A DNA stretch of 15,797 nt from Streptomyces violaceoruber (GTDB lineage: Bacteria > Actinomycetota > Actinomycetes > Streptomycetales > Streptomycetaceae). Where the stretch lies: NCBI GenBank assembly GCA_000720805.1, contig JODI01000131.1, positions 1 through 15,797 of the forward strand. Direction: 5' to 3'. Every line of letters begins with the position of its first letter. The stretch's first letter is position 1. Under the pieces are notes generated by a model, which ran no database searches, was not told the DNA's origin, and saw nothing but the letters and a program-made list of their open reading frames with translations. Positions 6,401 to 15,594 of this stretch are shown piece after piece. The translations under genes and the position numbers were made by a program.

Positions 6401-6669
6401 GCCGGCGCGAAGCTCGCGCATCACCGCCGTGCAGCGCCAGGCACATCATTCACGCTCACCCTCGCGAACCGCACGGATTCGCAGCTCCAGCAGCCGAAGT
6501 CCTGGCCGCTACCGTCCTGCGGCTAAATCTGCCATCGGCTGCCCCTCTCGACCGAGGCATTGCATCGTAGGCTGAATTCGTCGGTCTGGGCCAAATCAGT
6601 GTTGAGCAGCGGCAATGCGCCTCATCGCGTCGGCGAACACGAGGGACTCACGGCAATGGACAGGACCAG
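6401..6669. other. Upstream region of the seven-gene operon
   Basis: No convincing gene. A possible -10 element, TAGGCT, is at 6568-6573, without a clear -35 box, so the operon promoter probably lies between about 6530 and 6600. GAGGGA at 6641-6646 precedes a five-codon ORF (ATG at 6656). Composition is less GC-rich toward 6560-6720 than in neighbouring genes. I saw no recognisable riboswitch. Confidence 0.35.
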
Positions 6670-6673
6670 ATGA
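6656..6673 (+). other. Possible five-codon leader peptide overlapping the first operon gene
   Basis: ATG GAC AGG ACC AGA TGA (Met-Asp-Arg-Thr-Arg) has GAGGGA 9 nt upstream, and its TGA overlaps the ATG of the nucleotidyltransferase gene (ATGA). Both Arg codons (AGG, AGA) are rare in Streptomyces. It could couple or tune translation of the first gene. A chance occurrence is quite possible. Confidence 0.25.
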
Positions 6674-7476
6674 AGAAATACGTGACGAAACTCATTGAAG
6701 AGCGCCAGAATGTGCATGCGGTATTGATGGCTGGAGGGCTGGGGACGCGTCTGAAGCCCGTCACCGACGTGCTGCCGAAGCTTCTCCTGCCGATAGCCGG
6801 ACGGCCTCTGCTTGATTATGTCCTGGACCGCATCGCTGTCGCGGGGATTCACCGCGTACATCTGATGCTCGGTCATTCTGCAGCGCTGATCAAAGCGTAC
6901 GTCGAGGCCAACAGTGAACGCTGGCCCTCGCTTCACTTCTCCGTAACCGTCGAGGATTCCCCTCTCGGCACCGCAGGCCCGCTACGGTTGCTGGAAGAGG
7001 TGAACACACACCTTCTCGTCCTGAACGGCGACGTGCTGACGGACGTTGATCTGGGGCACATCGTTGTCGAACACATGAGGTCGGGTGCGGATCTCACGGT
7101 AGTTGCGGCCTCCCATACCACCAAGGTGCCGTTCGCGGTCCTGGAATCGGACGGAGTCGGCCGTCTGACCGGCCTTGTCGAGAAGCCCTCTTACCAGCAC
7201 TGCGTTGCGGCAGGAATGTATGTGCTGGGACCTCGATGCCGGTCGGTGTTCGTCAGCCGCGGACCGGACGACATGCCGGAACTCATCGGCAGGGCCCTTG
7301 CTGCGAAGCAGGTCGTCCGCCAGTACCTGCTCGACCCTGCGACGACGTGGTGCGAAGTCGGGGAAGCGTTCGGTTATGCCGAAGCGCACCAAAAGGCGGC
7401 CGCGCTTCGGCTGTTCGAACCGACTCCATCCCCTCTGACCTGTCAGCGGGCTGCGGGCGAGAAGGAATTTGTATGA
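6670..7476 (+). CDS. Sugar-phosphate nucleotidyltransferase
   Basis: A 268-residue cytoplasmic enzyme expected to join a sugar 1-phosphate to an NTP, giving an NDP-sugar and pyrophosphate. The signature LMAGGLGTRLKPVTDVLPK spans residues 19-37, with GGxGTRL for the nucleotide phosphates and the Pro-Lys pair at 36-37. PLGTAG is at 98-103 and LNGDVLTDVDL at 118-128, whose Asp is the metal and nucleotide ligand. VEKP and AGMYVLG follow in the sugar-binding half. There is no C-terminal left-handed beta-helix, so this is a single-domain form. Sugar and nucleotide preference cannot be read directly. The ATG at 6670 has AGGA five bases upstream. Its 5' end is AT-richer than its neighbours. It is the first gene of the operon, and its stop overlaps the next start (ATGA). 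Confidence 0.85.
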   Translation: MKKYVTKLIEERQNVHAVLMAGGLGTRLKPVTDVLPKLLLPIAGRPLLDYVLDRIAVAGIHRVHLMLGHSAALIKAYVEANSERWPSLHFSVTVEDSPLGTAGPLRLLEEVNTHLLVLNGDVLTDVDLGHIVVEHMRSGADLTVVAASHTTKVPFAVLESDGVGRLTGLVEKPSYQHCVAAGMYVLGPRCRSVFVSRGPDDMPELIGRALAAKQVVRQYLLDPATTWCEVGEAFGYAEAHQKAAALRLFEPTPSPLTCQRAAGEKEFV

Positions 7477-8837
7477 GGCCGTTACCGTACGTTCCGTATG
7501 GGAAGGCGCTTGAAGGCGTACCGCATGTGTTTGTCGATTCTCTGCGGACACCGTTTACCAGGTTGGAGCTCAGTCACTGGCCGGGTAATGGCACGCCCTC
7601 GGAACTCAAGGCAGACGTCAGCACGCAGTCAGTGCTAGGACTGCTGGCACTCGGGCAAGCACGCCGGGAGGAACTGCTGGACGGCGCCACGGCGGTCAGT
7701 TGCGACCACTACGACGTCGACGGATTACTCAGCGTGTGGTCCCTGACCGCTCCTGACCAGGCGCTCCGCCATCGAGATTTGGTGGCCCGGACGGCCGTGT
7801 GCGGTGACTTCGACATGTTCACGGGCGCCGAACCGGTGCGGTCGTGTCTCGCGTTACTGGCTGCAGAGAAGGCGATCCAGCGGTCGATTCTCGACAGCGC
7901 CGGATCCCTCACGGTCGAAGATCATACCGGCCGGCTCTTTGCCGGAGTCCTTGAAGCGGCACCAGACTGCTTGTCGGCTCCGCAGAAATGGGAAGACCAC
8001 TGGGCGCAGGAATGGGAACAGATCGATCGGTCCCGCCGCATCCTCAGAGCCCGGCCCACTGCCATCACCGAGTATCCGCACCTCGATTTGGCGGTGGTCG
8101 AGGATGAGGAGGAGCCGCTGCACGAGTGGGCCGTTCACGAATCGACCCGCGCACTCAGTGTTCTTCTTCTGCGCCCCGATGGACGGCACAGCATGCGTTT
8201 CCGCTATGAGAGCTTCGTCGACCTGCAGAGCCGGACGGTACCTGCCCGAGTGCGCGGTGATGTGCTCGCCGCCCGCTTGAACGAGGCGGAGAACCAGGCC
8301 GGATGCACCTGGTTCTGTGAGCCGCCGTCGAGCGCCACACCGCTTCTCCAACTCTACAGCGAGAGCAGCGTTCCGGCACCGAGCGCCATCGACGCTGACG
8401 AACTGCGACGCCTGGTCGTGCAGTACTTCGTGGACGCCGACGCGGAGCCTGCGCTGCGCTGGTCCCCCCCATGCCCATTGGTATTCCGAGACGCCGGTCG
8501 GCCCGCCTTCCAAGGAGACCGCATGAAACGTGTTGCCCGCATCGGCGCACAGTTGACCGACGGCCGTGTCGTCGAGGTGGACACGGACGACGGCAGGATG
8601 CTGGCGCGTCTCGTCGACGGCTCCCCAGTCGTCCACGCTTTCCTGTGCCCCCATAGCGGAGCTCCGCTGAGTGAGGCGTACACCGTGGCAGGCACCCTCG
8701 TCTGCTCCTGGCACCGGTCCGTCTTCCGCGGCGCGGACGGAGCACACCTGTATGGGCCGGCTGGCTGCGGCATCGCCATCCGTGCCGCCTCCCTCGACGG
8801 CGACGATCTGCTCATCGACGACAGCACGGCGGGATGA
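7473..8837 (+). CDS. DUF6687-like protein fused to a Rieske [2Fe-2S] domain
   Basis: A 454-residue protein in two parts. Residues 1-350 resemble the DUF6687 family, with an N-terminal PYVPYG..., LSHWPGNGTP (33-42), CDHYDVDGLLS (77-87) and CGDFD (110-114). DHYDVDG resembles motif I of DHH phosphoesterases (D-x-D-x-D-G), which suggests but does not prove a metal-dependent phosphoesterase-like core. From Met351 a Rieske domain follows: C392-P-H394, sixteen residues, then C411-S-W-H414, the complete ligand set for a [2Fe-2S] cluster. An excellent ribosome binding site, AAGGAG, lies just before the Met351 ATG at 8523, so a separate 104-residue ferredoxin may also be made. Two TTA codons (7725-7727, 7854-7856) imply bldA control. 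The start overlaps the previous stop (ATGA), with GAAGGAA upstream. Confidence 0.75.
   Translation: MRPLPYVPYGKALEGVPHVFVDSLRTPFTRLELSHWPGNGTPSELKADVSTQSVLGLLALGQARREELLDGATAVSCDHYDVDGLLSVWSLTAPDQALRHRDLVARTAVCGDFDMFTGAEPVRSCLALLAAEKAIQRSILDSAGSLTVEDHTGRLFAGVLEAAPDCLSAPQKWEDHWAQEWEQIDRSRRILRARPTAITEYPHLDLAVVEDEEEPLHEWAVHESTRALSVLLLRPDGRHSMRFRYESFVDLQSRTVPARVRGDVLAARLNEAENQAGCTWFCEPPSSATPLLQLYSESSVPAPSAIDADELRRLVVQYFVDADAEPALRWSPPCPLVFRDAGRPAFQGDRMKRVARIGAQLTDGRVVEVDTDDGRMLARLVDGSPVVHAFLCPHSGAPLSEAYTVAGTLVCSWHRSVFRGADGAHLYGPAGCGIAIRAASLDGDDLLIDDSTAG
8523..8837 (+). CDS. Possible separately translated Rieske ferredoxin (internal start)
   Basis: This in-frame start inside the DUF6687-Rieske gene has AAGGAG with a six-base spacer, better than most gene starts in this operon. 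The product (104 residues, MKRVARIGAQ...) would be a complete small Rieske protein: CPH at 42-44 and CSWH at 61-64. It would carry one electron to a partner oxygenase or other redox enzyme. No oxygenase is encoded in the visible operon. Either the fusion, the short form, or both may be produced. Confidence 0.45.
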   Translation: MKRVARIGAQLTDGRVVEVDTDDGRMLARLVDGSPVVHAFLCPHSGAPLSEAYTVAGTLVCSWHRSVFRGADGAHLYGPAGCGIAIRAASLDGDDLLIDDSTAG

Positions 8838-8838
8838 G

Positions 8839-9882
8839 ATGCCGATACCACGACCGGACGACCTGCTGCGCATGTGGGCGAACACCGCCCAAGAAGCGGT
8901 GCAACTCACCGTGCCCCAGGCCCGGTTGCTGGCCGATCCACGGAAAGACTCGTACCGCTGTCTGTCAGTCATCGGCATCACGGCCGACGGGGTGCTGGCG
9001 CGCCCCGCGTTCGGGTGGCTGCTGCCACGGCGTCCGCCGAGCGGCACCCTGCCTGCCCTTGTCGGCCGTGCGTACACATCTGTCCAGCAGGCGAGTGTCC
9101 TGCTGGCCCAGCGGGTCGACGTCCACCAAGCAGTGCTGCAACTGGCCACCGCCAATGCGGATCTCGCCCAGTGGGAACGGGCATCACGCCCTGCGGACGA
9201 CGCCCTCGTCGCCGCCTGTTCGCGCGGTGCCCGCGCGGTGCGGTCGGAAACCGACCCGAGAGCGCTGGCCGCGATCCAGGGCTGGTTCGGGCGCCATGGC
9301 GACAGCCTGCTCGGTCGGACCGTCCGACGTGTCTTTCGTGCGACGGGCCCGGTCCCCGAGGACACGCGCCACCGAGGGGATGACGACACCCACCTCGCGA
9401 CCTGCGCGGGCGTCGATACCGAAGACCTGCTCCGCGCCGGGGGTACGTCCGCCGTGCAGGTGTACAGGGCCACGGCCCTGGCGCACCAGGACGGCGAACC
9501 CGTCTGGGCAGTCCTCGAACGCCGCTGCGACGAATGGACACTGAGCACCGCCAGCGCGCATGTCCTGCGGCTCCTCGCTTCGACCGCCCGCACCGCCGCT
9601 ACCCGGGTGCACAGAATGCTCCTGCGGGAGTCCCTGCCCATGCCGACGGCCCGGGTGATCTACGGCCTGCTCGTGTGGTCGGCCCTCGATACGGCGGCGA
9701 TCCACCGAGCCAAGCTCGGCACAGCCGGGGAGTGCGGAGTGGACGATGCTGTGCTGCTGGAGCTGATGGCACAGATCAAGGCCTACGCCCATGAGTTCCT
9801 GGACGGCGTTCCGGCGCTGCGCGTACTCGGCAACCCCTCGTCCCGACACGCCCTGCAACCCACGCCAGGGGAGCGACGGTGA
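8839..9882 (+). CDS. Uncharacterised protein (347 aa)
   Basis: I recognise no family. The protein begins MPIPRPDDLLRMW and is soluble and mostly helical, with many Ala, Arg and Leu residues and no signal peptide or membrane segment. Notable stretches are an acidic GDDDTHLATCAGVD near the middle and a helical C-terminal half with LLVWSALDTAAIHRAKLG and LLELMAQIKAYAHEFLDG. There is no Walker motif, DxD, GNAT loop or classic metal site. It starts one base after the previous stop (TGAGATG), and its stop overlaps the GTG of the next gene, so it is made as part of the operon and probably works with the 647-residue protein. An ATG at 8834 is in another frame and does not give a similarly long sensible product. 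Confidence 0.75.
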   Translation: MPIPRPDDLLRMWANTAQEAVQLTVPQARLLADPRKDSYRCLSVIGITADGVLARPAFGWLLPRRPPSGTLPALVGRAYTSVQQASVLLAQRVDVHQAVLQLATANADLAQWERASRPADDALVAACSRGARAVRSETDPRALAAIQGWFGRHGDSLLGRTVRRVFRATGPVPEDTRHRGDDDTHLATCAGVDTEDLLRAGGTSAVQVYRATALAHQDGEPVWAVLERRCDEWTLSTASAHVLRLLASTARTAATRVHRMLLRESLPMPTARVIYGLLVWSALDTAAIHRAKLGTAGECGVDDAVLLELMAQIKAYAHEFLDGVPALRVLGNPSSRHALQPTPGERR

Positions 9883-11822
9883 CGCCCTTCTGGACCGATC
9901 CGTCGCTTGCTCGCTGGCTCGGTGCGGTCGCTCAGGGCCGGGCGGTCGCGCTGAACGCGCTGGGGGTCCACCCAAACGATCCATGGGCTGCCGAAGGTGG
10001 CGATGCGGCCTGCGACCTGTTCGAGTTCCTCCTCAGCCTGCGTCCCACCCTGCGCATGCACGACGGTGCGCGGGCGCGGCAGCTGAAGAAGATCACCCGG
10101 GCCCTTAATTTCCGGCTGGCGGCACAGATCTCATGGGTGGAAGCCCCGACTGCGCTGATCGCGGTGAACACCAGCCTGGCGCGCGCCGCGGTCGCCGCCC
10201 TGCATCCCGCGGCGGACCGGGACGCAGCGCTGACAGAGATCATCCGAACCAGCCTCGTGCCGGCCGATACCTCCTGCGCTTCGCTGCTCACCTCGCGGTA
10301 CCGGCCGGTGCGTTCCGAGGAGTGGGCGGTGCTCGACGGAGCCCGGTTGCCACGGGTTCGGCTGGCTCCGCAGCGGCCGGTGCTCGTGCTGTCCAGCGCC
10401 GGCCGGCCGGCGGACGTCCAGACGGCTCTGCTGGCGTACTTGCCTGTGATCAGGGACTACGGGCACCAGGATTTGACCGTCGTACTGGCTGACGACGCCG
10501 CCTCACCGGCGCACGCAGGGAAACTGGAGGCCGTGGCAGCGCAGGCCGCGGACCGCTATGGAATCGAGGTCGTCCGGTTCTCCGAGTGGCGAGGAGACGG
10601 GCGGCGCGGCGCCAAACACCGGTTCCGCGGCCACGTGCTGCAGCGACTAGACCGGCTTGGCCTCCCGCGGCACGACATGGAGGCCGCAGGCCGTGCTCTC
10701 ACCCCGGGACTCCCCGGTACGGCCAACGCCGTGTTCACTCGATTCGCGGGTCGCGACCTGCTGTGGCTGGAGGAGGACGCCATCCCCTTCGCCGTCGAAC
10801 GCAGGCCCACCGGCTCACGGGACATGGCCACGCACACCGAAGAGGCGCGCGTACTGGCCGAGCACATGGTGGACCTGGTCGGGGAAAACGGCGCATCACA
10901 ACGGCATCCGGTGGATTTCCCGCACATCGTCGACCGGTGCCTGCACGCCACGGATCTGGAAGCCCTGCCCTTCGCGGCACAGACACCGACGTACGAGGAT
11001 GCCGGTTTCGAACGGGTCAGCGGCGCCGAGCGGGAACCGCACGGTTCCGCGGGAATGGTCCACTTCCACACGTGCGGCGAAGTGGACTATCGAGCCCGCC
11101 TCAGCCATCGCTTCGTGATGAGCGAAGCCGTCAGAGCCGAGGACCGGGCGGTATTCCTGAAGGGAGGAATGCCCCTGCAAAGGGGTTTCACCGAGGCACC
11201 GCCCACTGTTTCGTTACGACAGTGGACTTCCGCCTTCGGCACCGTTGTCGGATTCTCGGGACAAGCCCTGCTGCAGCCTCTCACAATGTGGGCGACCAAA
11301 GTACGCCTGGGCGACTTCGCGGTGGGACAACTGGCCCGCTTCCGCGGCATGACCGGCTGTGTGGCCGGTACCGCACTGGAGCACCACAGGGGTGACGTCA
11401 CCGACTCCGGCCGTGGAGAGCTGCCTTCCTACCTGGCCAATGAGGAGTTGCTCTGGCCCCTGTTGCGTCACACCGACATGGTATTGGCCGGCCTGCCCCG
11501 AATCCGGGACTATTCCCAGTGGTTGCTCACGGCTGGAGAATCACTCCGCGCACCACAGCCGGGCTATATAGTGCCACCCGCCCTGGCGCACGCCCTCCAC
11601 GCAGAATTCAAAGAAGACCTGCGGCAGGCAAGAAAGTCGGCTATTCCCGCTGTTCGCGAGTACGGCACGACTCTCCGAGCCCGCCTGAGTGCTTTCGCAC
11701 AGAAGCCTTGGATTGATTATCACGCGATGCTCGAGCGTCAGGCAACGACTGAAATACAGGCCTATGCGGCACAGTTGAGGGTTTGGTCTCACATCGTCTC
11801 CTCAGCAGGGGCTGGGGAGTGA
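9879..11822 (+). CDS. Large GT-A-like putative glycosyltransferase (647 aa)
   Basis: The largest protein of the operon, with three visible regions. Residues 1-165 are a helical N-terminal region of unknown family. Residues about 166-310 look like a nucleotide-sugar-binding GT-A fold: PVLVLSSAGRPADVQTAL (167-184) as first strand and helix, DLTVVLADDAAS (198-209), then GTANAVFTRFAGRDLLWLEE with D300 (280-300), where the acidic EED would take the place of the metal-binding DxD. The rest, to 647, is a large helical region with several conserved-looking His and acidic sites (HFHTCGEVDYRARLSHRF). I infer a glycosyltransferase that uses the NDP-sugar from the first gene; DUF6271-type proteins look distantly similar. 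It starts at GTG 9879, overlapping the previous stop (GTGA). A TTA codon is at 11214-11216. No membrane segment is clear, so it should act in the cytoplasm. Confidence 0.55.
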   Translation: MTPFWTDPSLARWLGAVAQGRAVALNALGVHPNDPWAAEGGDAACDLFEFLLSLRPTLRMHDGARARQLKKITRALNFRLAAQISWVEAPTALIAVNTSLARAAVAALHPAADRDAALTEIIRTSLVPADTSCASLLTSRYRPVRSEEWAVLDGARLPRVRLAPQRPVLVLSSAGRPADVQTALLAYLPVIRDYGHQDLTVVLADDAASPAHAGKLEAVAAQAADRYGIEVVRFSEWRGDGRRGAKHRFRGHVLQRLDRLGLPRHDMEAAGRALTPGLPGTANAVFTRFAGRDLLWLEEDAIPFAVERRPTGSRDMATHTEEARVLAEHMVDLVGENGASQRHPVDFPHIVDRCLHATDLEALPFAAQTPTYEDAGFERVSGAEREPHGSAGMVHFHTCGEVDYRARLSHRFVMSEAVRAEDRAVFLKGGMPLQRGFTEAPPTVSLRQWTSAFGTVVGFSGQALLQPLTMWATKVRLGDFAVGQLARFRGMTGCVAGTALEHHRGDVTDSGRGELPSYLANEELLWPLLRHTDMVLAGLPRIRDYSQWLLTAGESLRAPQPGYIVPPALAHALHAEFKEDLRQARKSAIPAVREYGTTLRARLSAFAQKPWIDYHAMLERQATTEIQAYAAQLRVWSHIVSSAGAGE

Positions 11823-11878
11823 GAGAGCGCCGGATGGATCCGGACAGGGTAGTTCGGACAGAGGATGGAGGGAGTCAC

Positions 11879-12565
11879 GTGCACTCAGGCAACCAGCTGG
11901 GCCGGAAGACGGACCGAGTCCTTGTGGTCAGTCCGCACAGAGACGACGAGACCATCGGATGCGGCGGCGCTCTTTGCGCCCATGCCGCGCGTGGCGACGC
12001 GGTTGGGGTGGTACATCTGTGCGGCACAGGAGGCGCAACCGAGGCAGAGGCACAGGCGGCGGCGGCAGTTCTCGGCGTGACCGAGATGGTCACCCTCGGA
12101 GGGGACCCCATCCAGCTCGGTGCCGACCGAAGGCTCTTCGTCGAACTCGTTGCTGTCCTTCGGAGTTTCCGACCGACCACCTTGTACATCCCGCATGCCG
12201 ATGACGACGATCCGTCGCACCGAACGGCGCATGAACTCGCCATGGAAGCACGGTGGGCAGCGGCGTATCCGGTCTACCCGGAGGCGGGTGAACCATGTTC
12301 CGTGCCGGATGAGGTCTATGCGTACGAGGTCTGGACACCTCTGGCGCGGCCATCAGCCTTCGTGGACATCACACAACATGCGGCTCAGAAGGAAAAGGCA
12401 CTGCGCCAGTACGACTCTCAAATCGAACTGGCCCGCTGGGACGAAGGCGCGCTGGGACTGAACCGGTACCGCGGTGTCACTTCCGGATGCGGTGACTATG
12501 TCGAGGCCTTCGATGCCCTGAGGGTTCCACGGTTTCATGCACGCGGCCGACAAGGGGGATCATGA
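11879..12565 (+). CDS. PIG-L/LmbE-family deacetylase
   Basis: A 228-residue zinc-dependent N-deacetylase-like enzyme. Near the N-terminus, SPHRDDETIGCGG (18-30) is the family AHPDDE motif, with H20 and D23 as expected zinc ligands and D22 as the likely catalytic base; Arg replaces the usual Pro at 21. HADDDDPSHRTAH (106-118) supplies the third ligand His. Family members remove acetyl groups from GlcNAc-type sugars, as MshB does in mycothiol synthesis and BtrD in aminoglycoside synthesis. GTG 11879 is chosen because GGAGGGAG lies 5 nt upstream. An upstream ATG at 11834 would add 15 residues with a weaker site. It begins 56 bases after the glycosyltransferase, and its stop overlaps the acetyltransferase ATG (ATGA). 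Confidence 0.85.
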   Translation: MHSGNQLGRKTDRVLVVSPHRDDETIGCGGALCAHAARGDAVGVVHLCGTGGATEAEAQAAAAVLGVTEMVTLGGDPIQLGADRRLFVELVAVLRSFRPTTLYIPHADDDDPSHRTAHELAMEARWAAAYPVYPEAGEPCSVPDEVYAYEVWTPLARPSAFVDITQHAAQKEKALRQYDSQIELARWDEGALGLNRYRGVTSGCGDYVEAFDALRVPRFHARGRQGGS

Positions 12566-13815
12566 ACGTGACCACAGGTCCGGACTCTGTAAACATCGGG
12601 ACTCTGACACAGGAGGAGTGGGACGCCTGGTACGGCACATTCGAACGCGCCCTGGGTGGAGTACCCAAAGCCCCCGAGGAACGGCGCCTTTGGCGCGGCC
12701 TCACCGAGGTGGCCCGTTCGCTGGCCGCACGGAGCGGGGACGGGATCGTGGGCACGGCCGGTGCATTCTTCTTCCAGGTCTCGGTCCCCGGCGGCGCCCT
12801 TGTCCCGGCCGCGGGGCTGACCATGGTGAGCGTTCAGCCGACCCACCGTCGACGTGGTCTGCTGCGGGCGATGATGCGCCGGCTGCTTGACGACACACGT
12901 GAACGTGGCGAGCCCCTGGCGCTACTCACCGCGTCAGAGCCTGACATCTACGGGAGATACGGGTTTGGAAGCGCCGCCGTCCGACTCTCCCTCACCATCG
13001 ACAGCACCAGGGTCGCACTGCGCACCCCGGAGGGGACCGATGCGGCGCGGTTGCGGCTTTTCCCACCTGAGCTGGTCCTCGACCGGTGCGAGGCTCTCTA
13101 CGCCCAGCGGATCCGATCGCGTCCAGGCGCGCTCGTGCGCGGACCGGGCTGGAACCGGTTGCCGCTACTCGCTCCCGACGCCGGGCGAGCCGCCCATTCC
13201 CCTCTGCAATGCGTGACCGTCGACATCGCCGGCGAATTCTCCGGGTACGCGCGGTACTCGGTGGAACCCGTGTGGGCGGCACACGGAGCCGAGGGCATCG
13301 TGCACGTCCGCGATGTGGAGGCGTCCTCTCCCGAGGCATACGCGGCCCTTTGGCGATATCTCTTCGACCTCGATCTCACTTCTTCCGTGGTCGCCGAAAA
13401 CCGGCCGACGGACGATCCGCTCATTCACCTGGTCACCGACATCCGGCGTTGCGACGCGCGAGTACTCGATTCTCTTTATCTCCGCCTCGTGGACGTGGGC
13501 AGCGCGCTGGCCACGCGAACCTATGCGGTCCCCGTGGACATCGTGATCGAAGTCGACGATGAATTCTGCCCCTGGAACACCGGGCGCTGGCGGCTGTCAG
13601 GCGACGGAAAAGGGGCGGAGTGCACGCGTACACGTCAGGCTGCGGACCTTGCACTGTCCGCACGGGAACTGGGCGCCGTGTACCTGGGCGGAGTGAGCCT
13701 GCACGGGCCAGCGGCAGCTGGGCAGGTGCGGGAACTGACCATCGGTGCGCTGGACCACGGGGCCCAGGCATTCCGGTCGGCGACGGCGCCGTGGCTGCCC
13801 TACGTGGCCTTCTGA
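12562..13815 (+). CDS. Eis-like GNAT N-acetyltransferase
   Basis: A 417-residue protein of the Eis family, normally hexameric and able to acetylate several amines on substrates such as aminoglycosides. Residues about 87-105 (LTMVSVQPTHRRRGLLRAMM) form the acetyl-CoA pyrophosphate loop (RRRGLL). ASEPDIYGRYGFGSA (124-138) matches the Eis motif with the general-acid Tyr (Y130). A central second GNAT-like part and a C-terminal sterol-carrier-like domain follow. The chain ends in Phe417 (PWLPYVAF), and in mycobacterial Eis the terminal carboxylate is part of the active site, so the length and end are right. It could protect the producer by acetylating an aminosugar product, or be a biosynthetic step. 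The ATG overlaps the deacetylase stop, with GGGGG upstream. Confidence 0.85.
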   Translation: MNVTTGPDSVNIGTLTQEEWDAWYGTFERALGGVPKAPEERRLWRGLTEVARSLAARSGDGIVGTAGAFFFQVSVPGGALVPAAGLTMVSVQPTHRRRGLLRAMMRRLLDDTRERGEPLALLTASEPDIYGRYGFGSAAVRLSLTIDSTRVALRTPEGTDAARLRLFPPELVLDRCEALYAQRIRSRPGALVRGPGWNRLPLLAPDAGRAAHSPLQCVTVDIAGEFSGYARYSVEPVWAAHGAEGIVHVRDVEASSPEAYAALWRYLFDLDLTSSVVAENRPTDDPLIHLVTDIRRCDARVLDSLYLRLVDVGSALATRTYAVPVDIVIEVDDEFCPWNTGRWRLSGDGKGAECTRTRQAADLALSARELGAVYLGGVSLHGPAAAGQVRELTIGALDHGAQAFRSATAPWLPYVAF

Positions 13816-13836
13816 CCCGCGATCATGGAGAACCAA

Positions 13837-15021
13837 GTGATACTTCCAGAAGGGGCCCGGCGGGCGCGGTGGTCGGTTGCCGCGATCTTCGCCTTGAACG
13901 GTGTGGCTACCGGCACGTTCACCGTCCGCATCCCGTCCGTCCAGGCTCGACTGGGTCTGAGCGACGGCGAACTGGCCGTGGCGCTGTTCATGCCGTCGAT
14001 CGCGGGGGCCGTCACTCTGCTCTACGCCAGCCGGATCATGGACCGGTTCAGCGGGCGGACCTTGGCGCGGTGTCTGCTCGGCGTGTGGCTGGTCTGCCCG
14101 CTGCTACCGGTGGTGGTGCCGAACTTTGCTGCGTTGTGCGCGGCGCTTCTCGTGTACGGCGCGGTCGCCGGCCTGCTTGACGTGGTCATGAACGTCCAGG
14201 GGCTGGCGGTGGAGCGAAGTCTCGGCCGTCCCCTGATGTCCGGCTTCCACGGCATGTGGAGCCTGGGAGCACTCGGGGGAGCGGGGCTGGGAACCGCGTC
14301 CGCTTATGCGGGACTCGGAGCTGTGGCGCATGTGGGGTTGGTGATGGCGGTCCTGGTGCTCGTGGCGCTGGTGGCAGGGAGAAGTCTGCTGCCCGGCGAC
14401 GCCGCAACGGATGCCAGGGGAGAGCGGGGGGCCCGGGCCGCCCTGCCGCGTGGGCCGGTGCTTCGGATAGGGCTGGTCGGTTTCTGCGCCATGTTTGTGG
14501 AGGTGGGCGTCGCCAGCTGGTGCGGTGTCTACCTGAGCAAGGTGACCTCCGCGGCGCCCGGAACGTCCGCATTGGCCTACACGCTCTTTCTACTGACCGT
14601 GGCCGGCTGCCGTCTCGGCGGTGACCTTGTGATCCACCGATGGGGTGCACAGCGTACGGTGCGTCTTGCGAGTGGCGTGGGCCTGGTGGGCGGTGTGCTG
14701 GTGATTGTGGCGCCAGGGGCCTCGGCGACCACACTGGGATTCGGGCTTCTCGGAGCGGGAGTGGCGCTCGTCGTTCCGATGTCGATCGCCTCGGCTGGGC
14801 GCGCCGGACGGCGGTCGGGCCACTCGGTCTCCGGAGTTTCGACCCTCACCTATGGCGCAGGCATGCTGGCGCCCACCGTGCTCGGCGCCGTGGCTGCCTG
14901 GACGAACCTGCGTGTGTCCTTGCTCCTTGCCACCTGCCTGGTGGTCGCCATGGGCATCGGCTCACGTGCACTGAGGGACACAACTACGCCGACGCCGCAG
15001 GTTGCGTCCCTATCTTCGTAG
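13837..15021 (+). CDS. MFS exporter
   Basis: A 394-residue integral membrane protein with about twelve hydrophobic segments, an AlaArgArgAlaArg-rich cytoplasmic start, and the loop LYASRIMDRFSGRTL after the second segment, corresponding to the MFS motif A region. Its central loop, after about residue 195, is charged (TDARGERGAR), splitting two six-helix halves. It resembles the YbjJ/FucP-like branch of the major facilitator superfamily. The best ribosome binding site, GGAG (13827-13830), points to GTG 13837; ATG 13825 in the same frame adds four residues but has no site. It follows the Eis gene by about 20 bases and is the last gene of the operon, presumably exporting the product. I saw no obvious terminator after it. 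Confidence 0.85.
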   Translation: MILPEGARRARWSVAAIFALNGVATGTFTVRIPSVQARLGLSDGELAVALFMPSIAGAVTLLYASRIMDRFSGRTLARCLLGVWLVCPLLPVVVPNFAALCAALLVYGAVAGLLDVVMNVQGLAVERSLGRPLMSGFHGMWSLGALGGAGLGTASAYAGLGAVAHVGLVMAVLVLVALVAGRSLLPGDAATDARGERGARAALPRGPVLRIGLVGFCAMFVEVGVASWCGVYLSKVTSAAPGTSALAYTLFLLTVAGCRLGGDLVIHRWGAQRTVRLASGVGLVGGVLVIVAPGASATTLGFGLLGAGVALVVPMSIASAGRAGRRSGHSVSGVSTLTYGAGMLAPTVLGAVAAWTNLRVSLLLATCLVVAMGIGSRALRDTTTPTPQVASLSS

Positions 15022-15168: not shown

Positions 15169-15594
15169 GTGGAGGGGATTACTGAAGTCGAGGGCTGGGC
15201 TGGGGAGTTGGAGTCCGTCTTCGCTCGGGTGGCGGGCCGGTTCGGTCGTGCGGATCTGCGGTGGCGGATGCGGGACTATGTCCGCGGCCTGCTGGCGCCG
15301 GTGGGCCGCAAGAACGGCTGGCAACTGGCCGAGTACGCCGGACATCGTGACCCTGCTGGGCTGCAGCATCTGCTCAACGGTGCCCGCTGGGACGCTGACG
15401 CCGTTCGAGACGACCTGCGCGAGTACGTCGGACAACAACTCGGCCCGGACGGCGTGCTGATCATCGATGACACAGGGTTCATCAAGAAGGGCACCACGTC
15501 GGCCGGGGTGTCCCGGCAGTACACCGGCACGTCCGGGACCCGTATTTCAATAACTGTCAGCGACGGGTTCCGCGGGGGTTGTTCGGGCGTGTAG
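15169..15594 (+). pseudogene. IS701-family transposase, 3'-truncated
   Basis: A GTG start at 15169 is followed by residues typical of IS701-type (DDE_5) transposases: ARVAGRFGRADLRWRMRDYV, KNGWQLAEYAGHRDPAGLQH, LLNGARWDADAVRDDLREYV and LIIDDTGFIKKGTTSAGVSR, the last holding the first catalytic Asp (IDDTGF). The sequence matches the family up to QYTGTSG (about 15538), then leaves it and meets a stop at 15594. Full proteins run to roughly 400 residues, so about two thirds is missing, including the remaining catalytic acids. The break coincides with the end of another insertion sequence on the opposite strand. Confidence 0.75.

Follow-up and report, generated by a model that had tools for sequence, protein, structure and literature searches.

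Positions 6670 to 15021 of contig JODI01000131.1 of Streptomyces violaceoruber carry a plus-strand operon of seven genes, here called A to G, which we read with moderate confidence as a compact route to a small molecule, resting on a rare but conserved set of genes, in which a nucleoside diphosphate (NDP)-aminosugar would be activated, processed, deacetylated, acetylated and exported. The window analysed is this one whole contig (15,797 bases, from a 10.5-Mb genome in 350 contigs), and the view stops at the contig ends. From gene order, protein families, conservation and predicted folds we infer substrates, activities and a product, the last being, as far as the sequences can tell, probably a small aminosugar-based natural product. 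What is new appears to be the combination of mostly known enzyme kinds with three proteins that are as yet uncharacterised; for two of the three, structural models now give a likely fold. For DUF6687 and for the D family, which has no Pfam model, a likely fold implies a testable activity; moreover, a cassette this rare is likely to escape genome mining centred on polyketides and peptides, and the linkage of a second leucyl-tRNA synthetase (LeuRS) in one relative suggests a directly assayable target.

The evidence begins with a core that is kept together. The order DUF6687-Rieske-C-D is the same in all six loci whose DNA was read (the window and those of Streptomyces sp. TSRI0281, Actinomadura terrae, A. 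litoris, A. rubrisoli and A. macra), and a PIG-L gene lies 3' of D in each of them, directly in four of the five others and after a decarboxylase gene in TSRI0281. In the TSRI0281 locus, moreover, a dehydratase gene separates Rieske from C, and a methyltransferase gene separates C from D; the PIG-L gene of A. macra is divergent, being detected by Pfam and not by tblastn. A relative of A was found by tblastn in one of the five other loci, that of TSRI0281 (L002, 51% identity), and relatives of F and G in none of the five, although they could lie beyond the DNA read, which stops 4.4 kb past D in L002 and 1.7 kb past it in L005. These gene orders were derived with a rough open reading frame (ORF) script together with tblastn and Pfam; the script missed or truncated the majority of the genes in the window, and in a later run it still missed E. 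The shared order and PIG-L gene, with A in one other locus and F and G in none, indicate that the core is real and that its ends vary. The sequence-only reading had proposed a conserved seven-gene set and a gene-neighbourhood search as its check: the DUF6687-Rieske-C-D core with PIG-L survives that comparison, while the full set does not. Directly upstream of the A. terrae cassette there is a PfkB-type kinase gene (L003:7286-8185, by Pfam), of which A. litoris has a homologue (L004:7212-8186).

D occurs in one of 295 sampled genomes of the genus, which is its own, and is absent from a genome of the same species; a D profile matched two of 150 relatives, again its own genome and a weak match (E = 7e-4 over 40 positions). 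DUF6687 scored above cut-off in one of 392 sampled genus genomes, with one more match below it, and in 6 of 396 genomes of the phylum. Searches of 5.8 billion proteins, with scoring confined to the approximately 8000 candidates that had the most words in common with the query, returned 16 matches for D, 23 for DUF6687 (residues 1-335) and 2 for C (7997 best word-sharing candidates scored), the query being counted each time. Among these, a 42-kb contig of Streptomyces sp. NPDC088270 encodes relatives of D (83% identity) and C (75%).

Within the window (Table 1) the genes are joined by 4-base overlaps (A/B, C/D, E/F) or by gaps of 1 to 11 bases (B/C 1, F/G 9). The 11-base gap separates D from E when E starts at ATG 11834; GTG 11819 would overlap D by 4 bases, and GTG 11879 would leave 56. 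The tight plus-strand layout had been recognized from the letters alone and stands, its maximum gap of 56 bases applying with GTG 11879 and falling to 11 with the ATG. The families then listed for the seven genes also agree with the Pfam and NCBIfam scans, in which C and D have no family.

Table 1. Genes and domains of the operon.
Feature	Description	Position	Strand	Basis
A	Sugar-1-phosphate nucleotidyltransferase	6670-7476	+	Pfam NTP_transferase PF00483, 98.7 bits, 5.3e-28
B	Two-domain gene	7473-8837	+	DUF6687 + Rieske by Pfam
B, N-terminal part	DUF6687 domain, predicted to fold like DHH/DHHA1 proteins	7473-8477	+	PF20392, 264.6 bits
B, C-terminal part	Rieske [2Fe-2S]	8478-8837	+	PF00355, 31.4 bits, residues 364-429
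C	Orphan	8839-9882	+	Nothing above Pfam cut-off
D	647-aa GT-A protein, GT75 (MtdL/UAM)-like predicted fold	9879-11822, GTG start	+	Predicted fold
E	PIG-L/LmbE-type N-deacetylase	11834-12565, from ATG	+	PF02585, 3e-15, 57.3 bits vs 28.2 gathering score
F	Eis-like GNAT acetyltransferase	12562-13815	+	PF13527, PF17668, PF13530 (Eis-type GNAT + SCP2)
G	MFS transporter	13825-15021	+	MFS_1 PF07690, 57.3 bits, 1.7e-15

The fusion of DUF6687 to a Rieske domain, reported in the sequence-only reading, is present in the window; the two are separate genes in all five other D loci, overlapping by 4 bases in four and by 13 in A. macra according to the ORF script, and the window's protein is the only one of the 23 DUF6687 proteins with both Pfam domains in one chain. 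The Rieske part has CxH...CxxH, read by eye. An AlphaFold2 (AF2) model of DUF6687 (pLDDT 95) has PAP phosphatase, NrnA, DhhP and RecJ as its top PDB matches, with PggH and NrN also found. Residues ~180-320 superpose at 3.1-3.4 Å over 102-115 residues on NrN, DhhP, RecJ-type and NrnA chains, which we take to be DHHA1 proteins, and in the model the C-terminal domain is DHHA1-like. DUF6687 appears to resemble the DHH/DHHA1 phosphoesterases (NrnA, RecJ, PAP phosphatase, PggH) in predicted fold, and it has a motif I-like HxDxDG stretch, H79-x-D81-x-D83-G84, which is invariant, together with D112, in an alignment of 23 sequences; DHH motif III is absent from the invariant and nearly invariant columns and was not seen in 10 aligned sequences. 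A PDB sequence search with the DUF6687 profile gave chance-level matches only (best E = 0.035). Around DUF6687 in four other loci (L016 lying outside the scan), the ten neighbouring proteins scanned comprised two ArsA, one PhzF, one Ppx-GppA and six with no match, and no theme common to these four loci was apparent. B had no match in phages. Of 72,556 plasmid records, 2 gave a match to DUF6687, both of them from Burkholderia: the first match is full-length (30%), whereas the second spans 10% (E = 0.3). The relative on the Burkholderia arboris plasmid (L027:7638-9011) belongs to an ORF that is extended at its N-terminus; the region is unannotated, and the ORFs around it, MFS- and regulator-like by eye, are of no help on function.

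The predicted fold of D bears out the GT-A nature proposed from the sequence. As in GT75, there is a GT-A N-terminal region, a core of its own and C-terminal helices, and in the models D is nearest to NDP-sugar ring mutases, so that transfer, the role that had been assigned to it, may not be its chemistry. It differs from MtdL, Hyg20 and plant UAM (the GT75 NDP-pyranose mutases) in its length of 647 aa, with an extra N-terminal part of ~160 aa, and in having E298-x-D300 (15 of 15 aligned homologues) in place of their DDD metal motif, a D-to-E change that may still be compatible with metal binding. R476, D479 and H502 are likewise invariant (15 of 15) and align with R257, D260 and H287 of the GT75 phosphate/metal site, in an hhalign alignment with a probability of only 0.6%. 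No Arg conserved to at least 90% lies between residues 353 and 405 of D, where residues 370-387 have pLDDT below 50 and the alignment is unsure, and a counterpart of the MtdL nucleophile R159 could not be placed. The Pfam RGP profile matched neither D nor any other protein of the window's genome, and a PDB sequence search with the D profile stayed at chance level (best E = 0.49).

As for the remaining genes, the best NCBIfam profiles of A (man-1-P guanylyltransferase, Arch_glmU and AglF) all scored far below cut-off; the database proteins P0030 and P0032 join a nucleotidyltransferase and DUF6687 in a single chain. The final ~120 residues of C resemble, in an alignment, a stand-alone small Actinomadura protein. 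By its PF02585 match E is a PIG-L/LmbE deacetylase family member, with an HxDDE motif read by eye and relatives 59-68% identical in loci L002 to L005. F scores 513 bits with NF002367, an Eis-like subfamily whose cut-off is 259, and G is a probable exporter.

In the pathway that we propose, A would activate a sugar-1-phosphate, likely an N-acetylhexosamine, and D, as a metal-dependent GT75-like GT-A enzyme, would work on the NDP-sugar by ring contraction or sugar transfer. E would take off the N-acetyl group, while B, pairing a DHH-like phosphoesterase domain with a Rieske electron carrier, would process the nucleotide or phosphate moiety and might also carry out an oxidation; C would be accessory. 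F could acetylate the free amine, perhaps for self-protection, and G would export the product. Several observations weigh against this scheme. D has no Pfam match at E≤1, its sequence match to GT75 is weak (hhalign E = 0.09, with the low probability given above), and MtdL is not among its top 50 Foldseek matches. If D is a mutase, the operon has no separate glycosyltransferase to which the furanose could pass. Rieske carriers usually work for an oxygenase, and none is visible. The Actinomadura cassettes have no relative of A, F or G within the DNA read. Finally, literature and PDB sequence searches found no experimentally characterised protein of the D, C or DUF6687 families; nor did the literature yield anything on DUF6687, on TSRI0281, or on Streptomyces clusters joining Rieske and a PIG-L deacetylase.

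It is possible, if unlikely, that the cassette instead makes a LeuRS inhibitor in the manner of agrocin 84/TM84, the producer being protected by N-acetylation through F and, in TSRI0281, by a resistant second LeuRS. The TSRI0281 cluster comprises, in order, a condensation domain, an adenylation-carrier protein, a short radical SAM protein resembling Cfr/RlmN, a nucleotidyltransferase, three ABC genes, DUF6687, Rieske, a LegB-like dehydratase, C, a methyltransferase, D, a PLP decarboxylase and PIG-L; at the end of the part read stand a 208-aa protein that by eye has the look of a GNAT and then a LeuRS, a pair that speaks for this reading. The earlier statement that no polyketide or peptide synthase is present holds on the window's contig as regards the peptide synthase, whereas in TSRI0281 condensation and adenylation-carrier genes lie 5'. 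The TSRI0281 genome holds two LeuRS N-terminal halves. That of the cluster (L034:1-1369, minus strand, equal to L002:14860-16228), read up to where the assembly merges, shows 34 differences from its counterpart among the 175 residues aligned in positions 1-180, but a single one among the 237 of positions 181-420, a sharp edge of divergence that suggests recombination. The likeness to agrocin 84 lies in this second LeuRS, which is similar to a self-immunity synthetase such as AgnB2; some of the AgnB2 self-immunity determinants likewise adjoin the HIGH loop (PMC5059758).

Other features of TSRI0281 speak against an inhibitor of LeuRS. The 208-aa protein is GNAT-like by eye only, with no Pfam (E≤0.01) or NCBIfam (E≤0.001) match; 358 bases lie between it and the PIG-L gene, the contig edge truncates the LeuRS, and both genes may be part of a neighbour. 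The radical SAM gene (L034:14974-15831, minus strand; 216.8 bits vs the RlmN cut-off of 290, and below the Cfr cut-off too) could indicate the ribosome as target. Moreover, the window's genome and all four Actinomadura genomes have a single place above the LeuRS cut-off, and the evidence of a second LeuRS thus bears on TSRI0281 first. In contrast to the agrocin 84 cluster, the window's genome has no second LeuRS above the cut-off, and D has no homologue at E≤1 in the plasmid records, among which the inclusion of pAgK84 is unchecked. We regard as quite unlikely the stronger proposal of a new class of antibiotic cassette, in which a nucleotide-processing enzyme of DHH fold, coupled to a Rieske carrier, and a GT75-like enzyme would jointly make an aminosugar-nucleotide acting as a leucyl-adenylate mimic to block LeuRS, with self-protection by N-acetylation or by the recombinant second LeuRS.

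Nucleotidyltransferases, GT75-like folds and PIG-L proteins are also known from glycan pathways, and no exporter relative was found beside the Actinomadura cassettes (tblastn, with ten surrounding genes Pfam-scanned), as would suit an operon whose output is a glycolipid or glycan of the cell surface, modified with a furanose or an aminosugar, rather than a diffusible compound. We consider this improbable, given that the seven genes include no polymerase, flippase or lipid-carrier family, that MFS and Eis-like genes stand at the operon end, and that the cassette is rare. A mycothiol- or bacillithiol-like thiol pathway, suggested by the gene order sugar enzyme, PIG-L, acetyltransferase, is close to refuted, because none of the seven genes belongs to a cysteine ligase family, D is predicted to be GT-A, unlike MshA, which we take to be GT-B, and E falls far below the cut-offs for MshB (TIGR03445, 26.8 vs 224 bits) and BshB1 (90.5 vs 182.5) while F exceeds that of the Eis-like subfamily. 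The likeness to mycothiol synthesis drawn from the sequence is not supported: both have a PIG-L deacetylase and a GNAT acetyltransferase, only PIG-L being common in kind, and the operon has another glycosyl enzyme fold and the extra DUF6687, Rieske and C.

The window was also scanned for RNA families, tRNA, promoters, terminators, defence genes and repeats, with no result that informs function: no Rfam family exceeded its gathering score, no tRNA was found, the two promoter-like sites lie on the minus strand, and the 4 terminator-like sites (vs 3.6 in shuffles) include one on the plus strand, inside C. None of the seven proteins matched a PADLOC model of anti-phage defence at E≤0.01. The G+C content is 61-63% in A/B and E (window 6500-8000 and 11500-12500), whereas C and the first part of D are at 70-71%, a contrast that perhaps reflects mixed operon ancestry. 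Upstream lies a transposase (1446-2521) in two overlapping ORFs, the first with HTH_33 and other domains and the second with DDE_3, and a DDE_5 transposase fragment (15169-15594) is found directly 3' of the operon, near the contig end; transposases on both sides suggest mobility.
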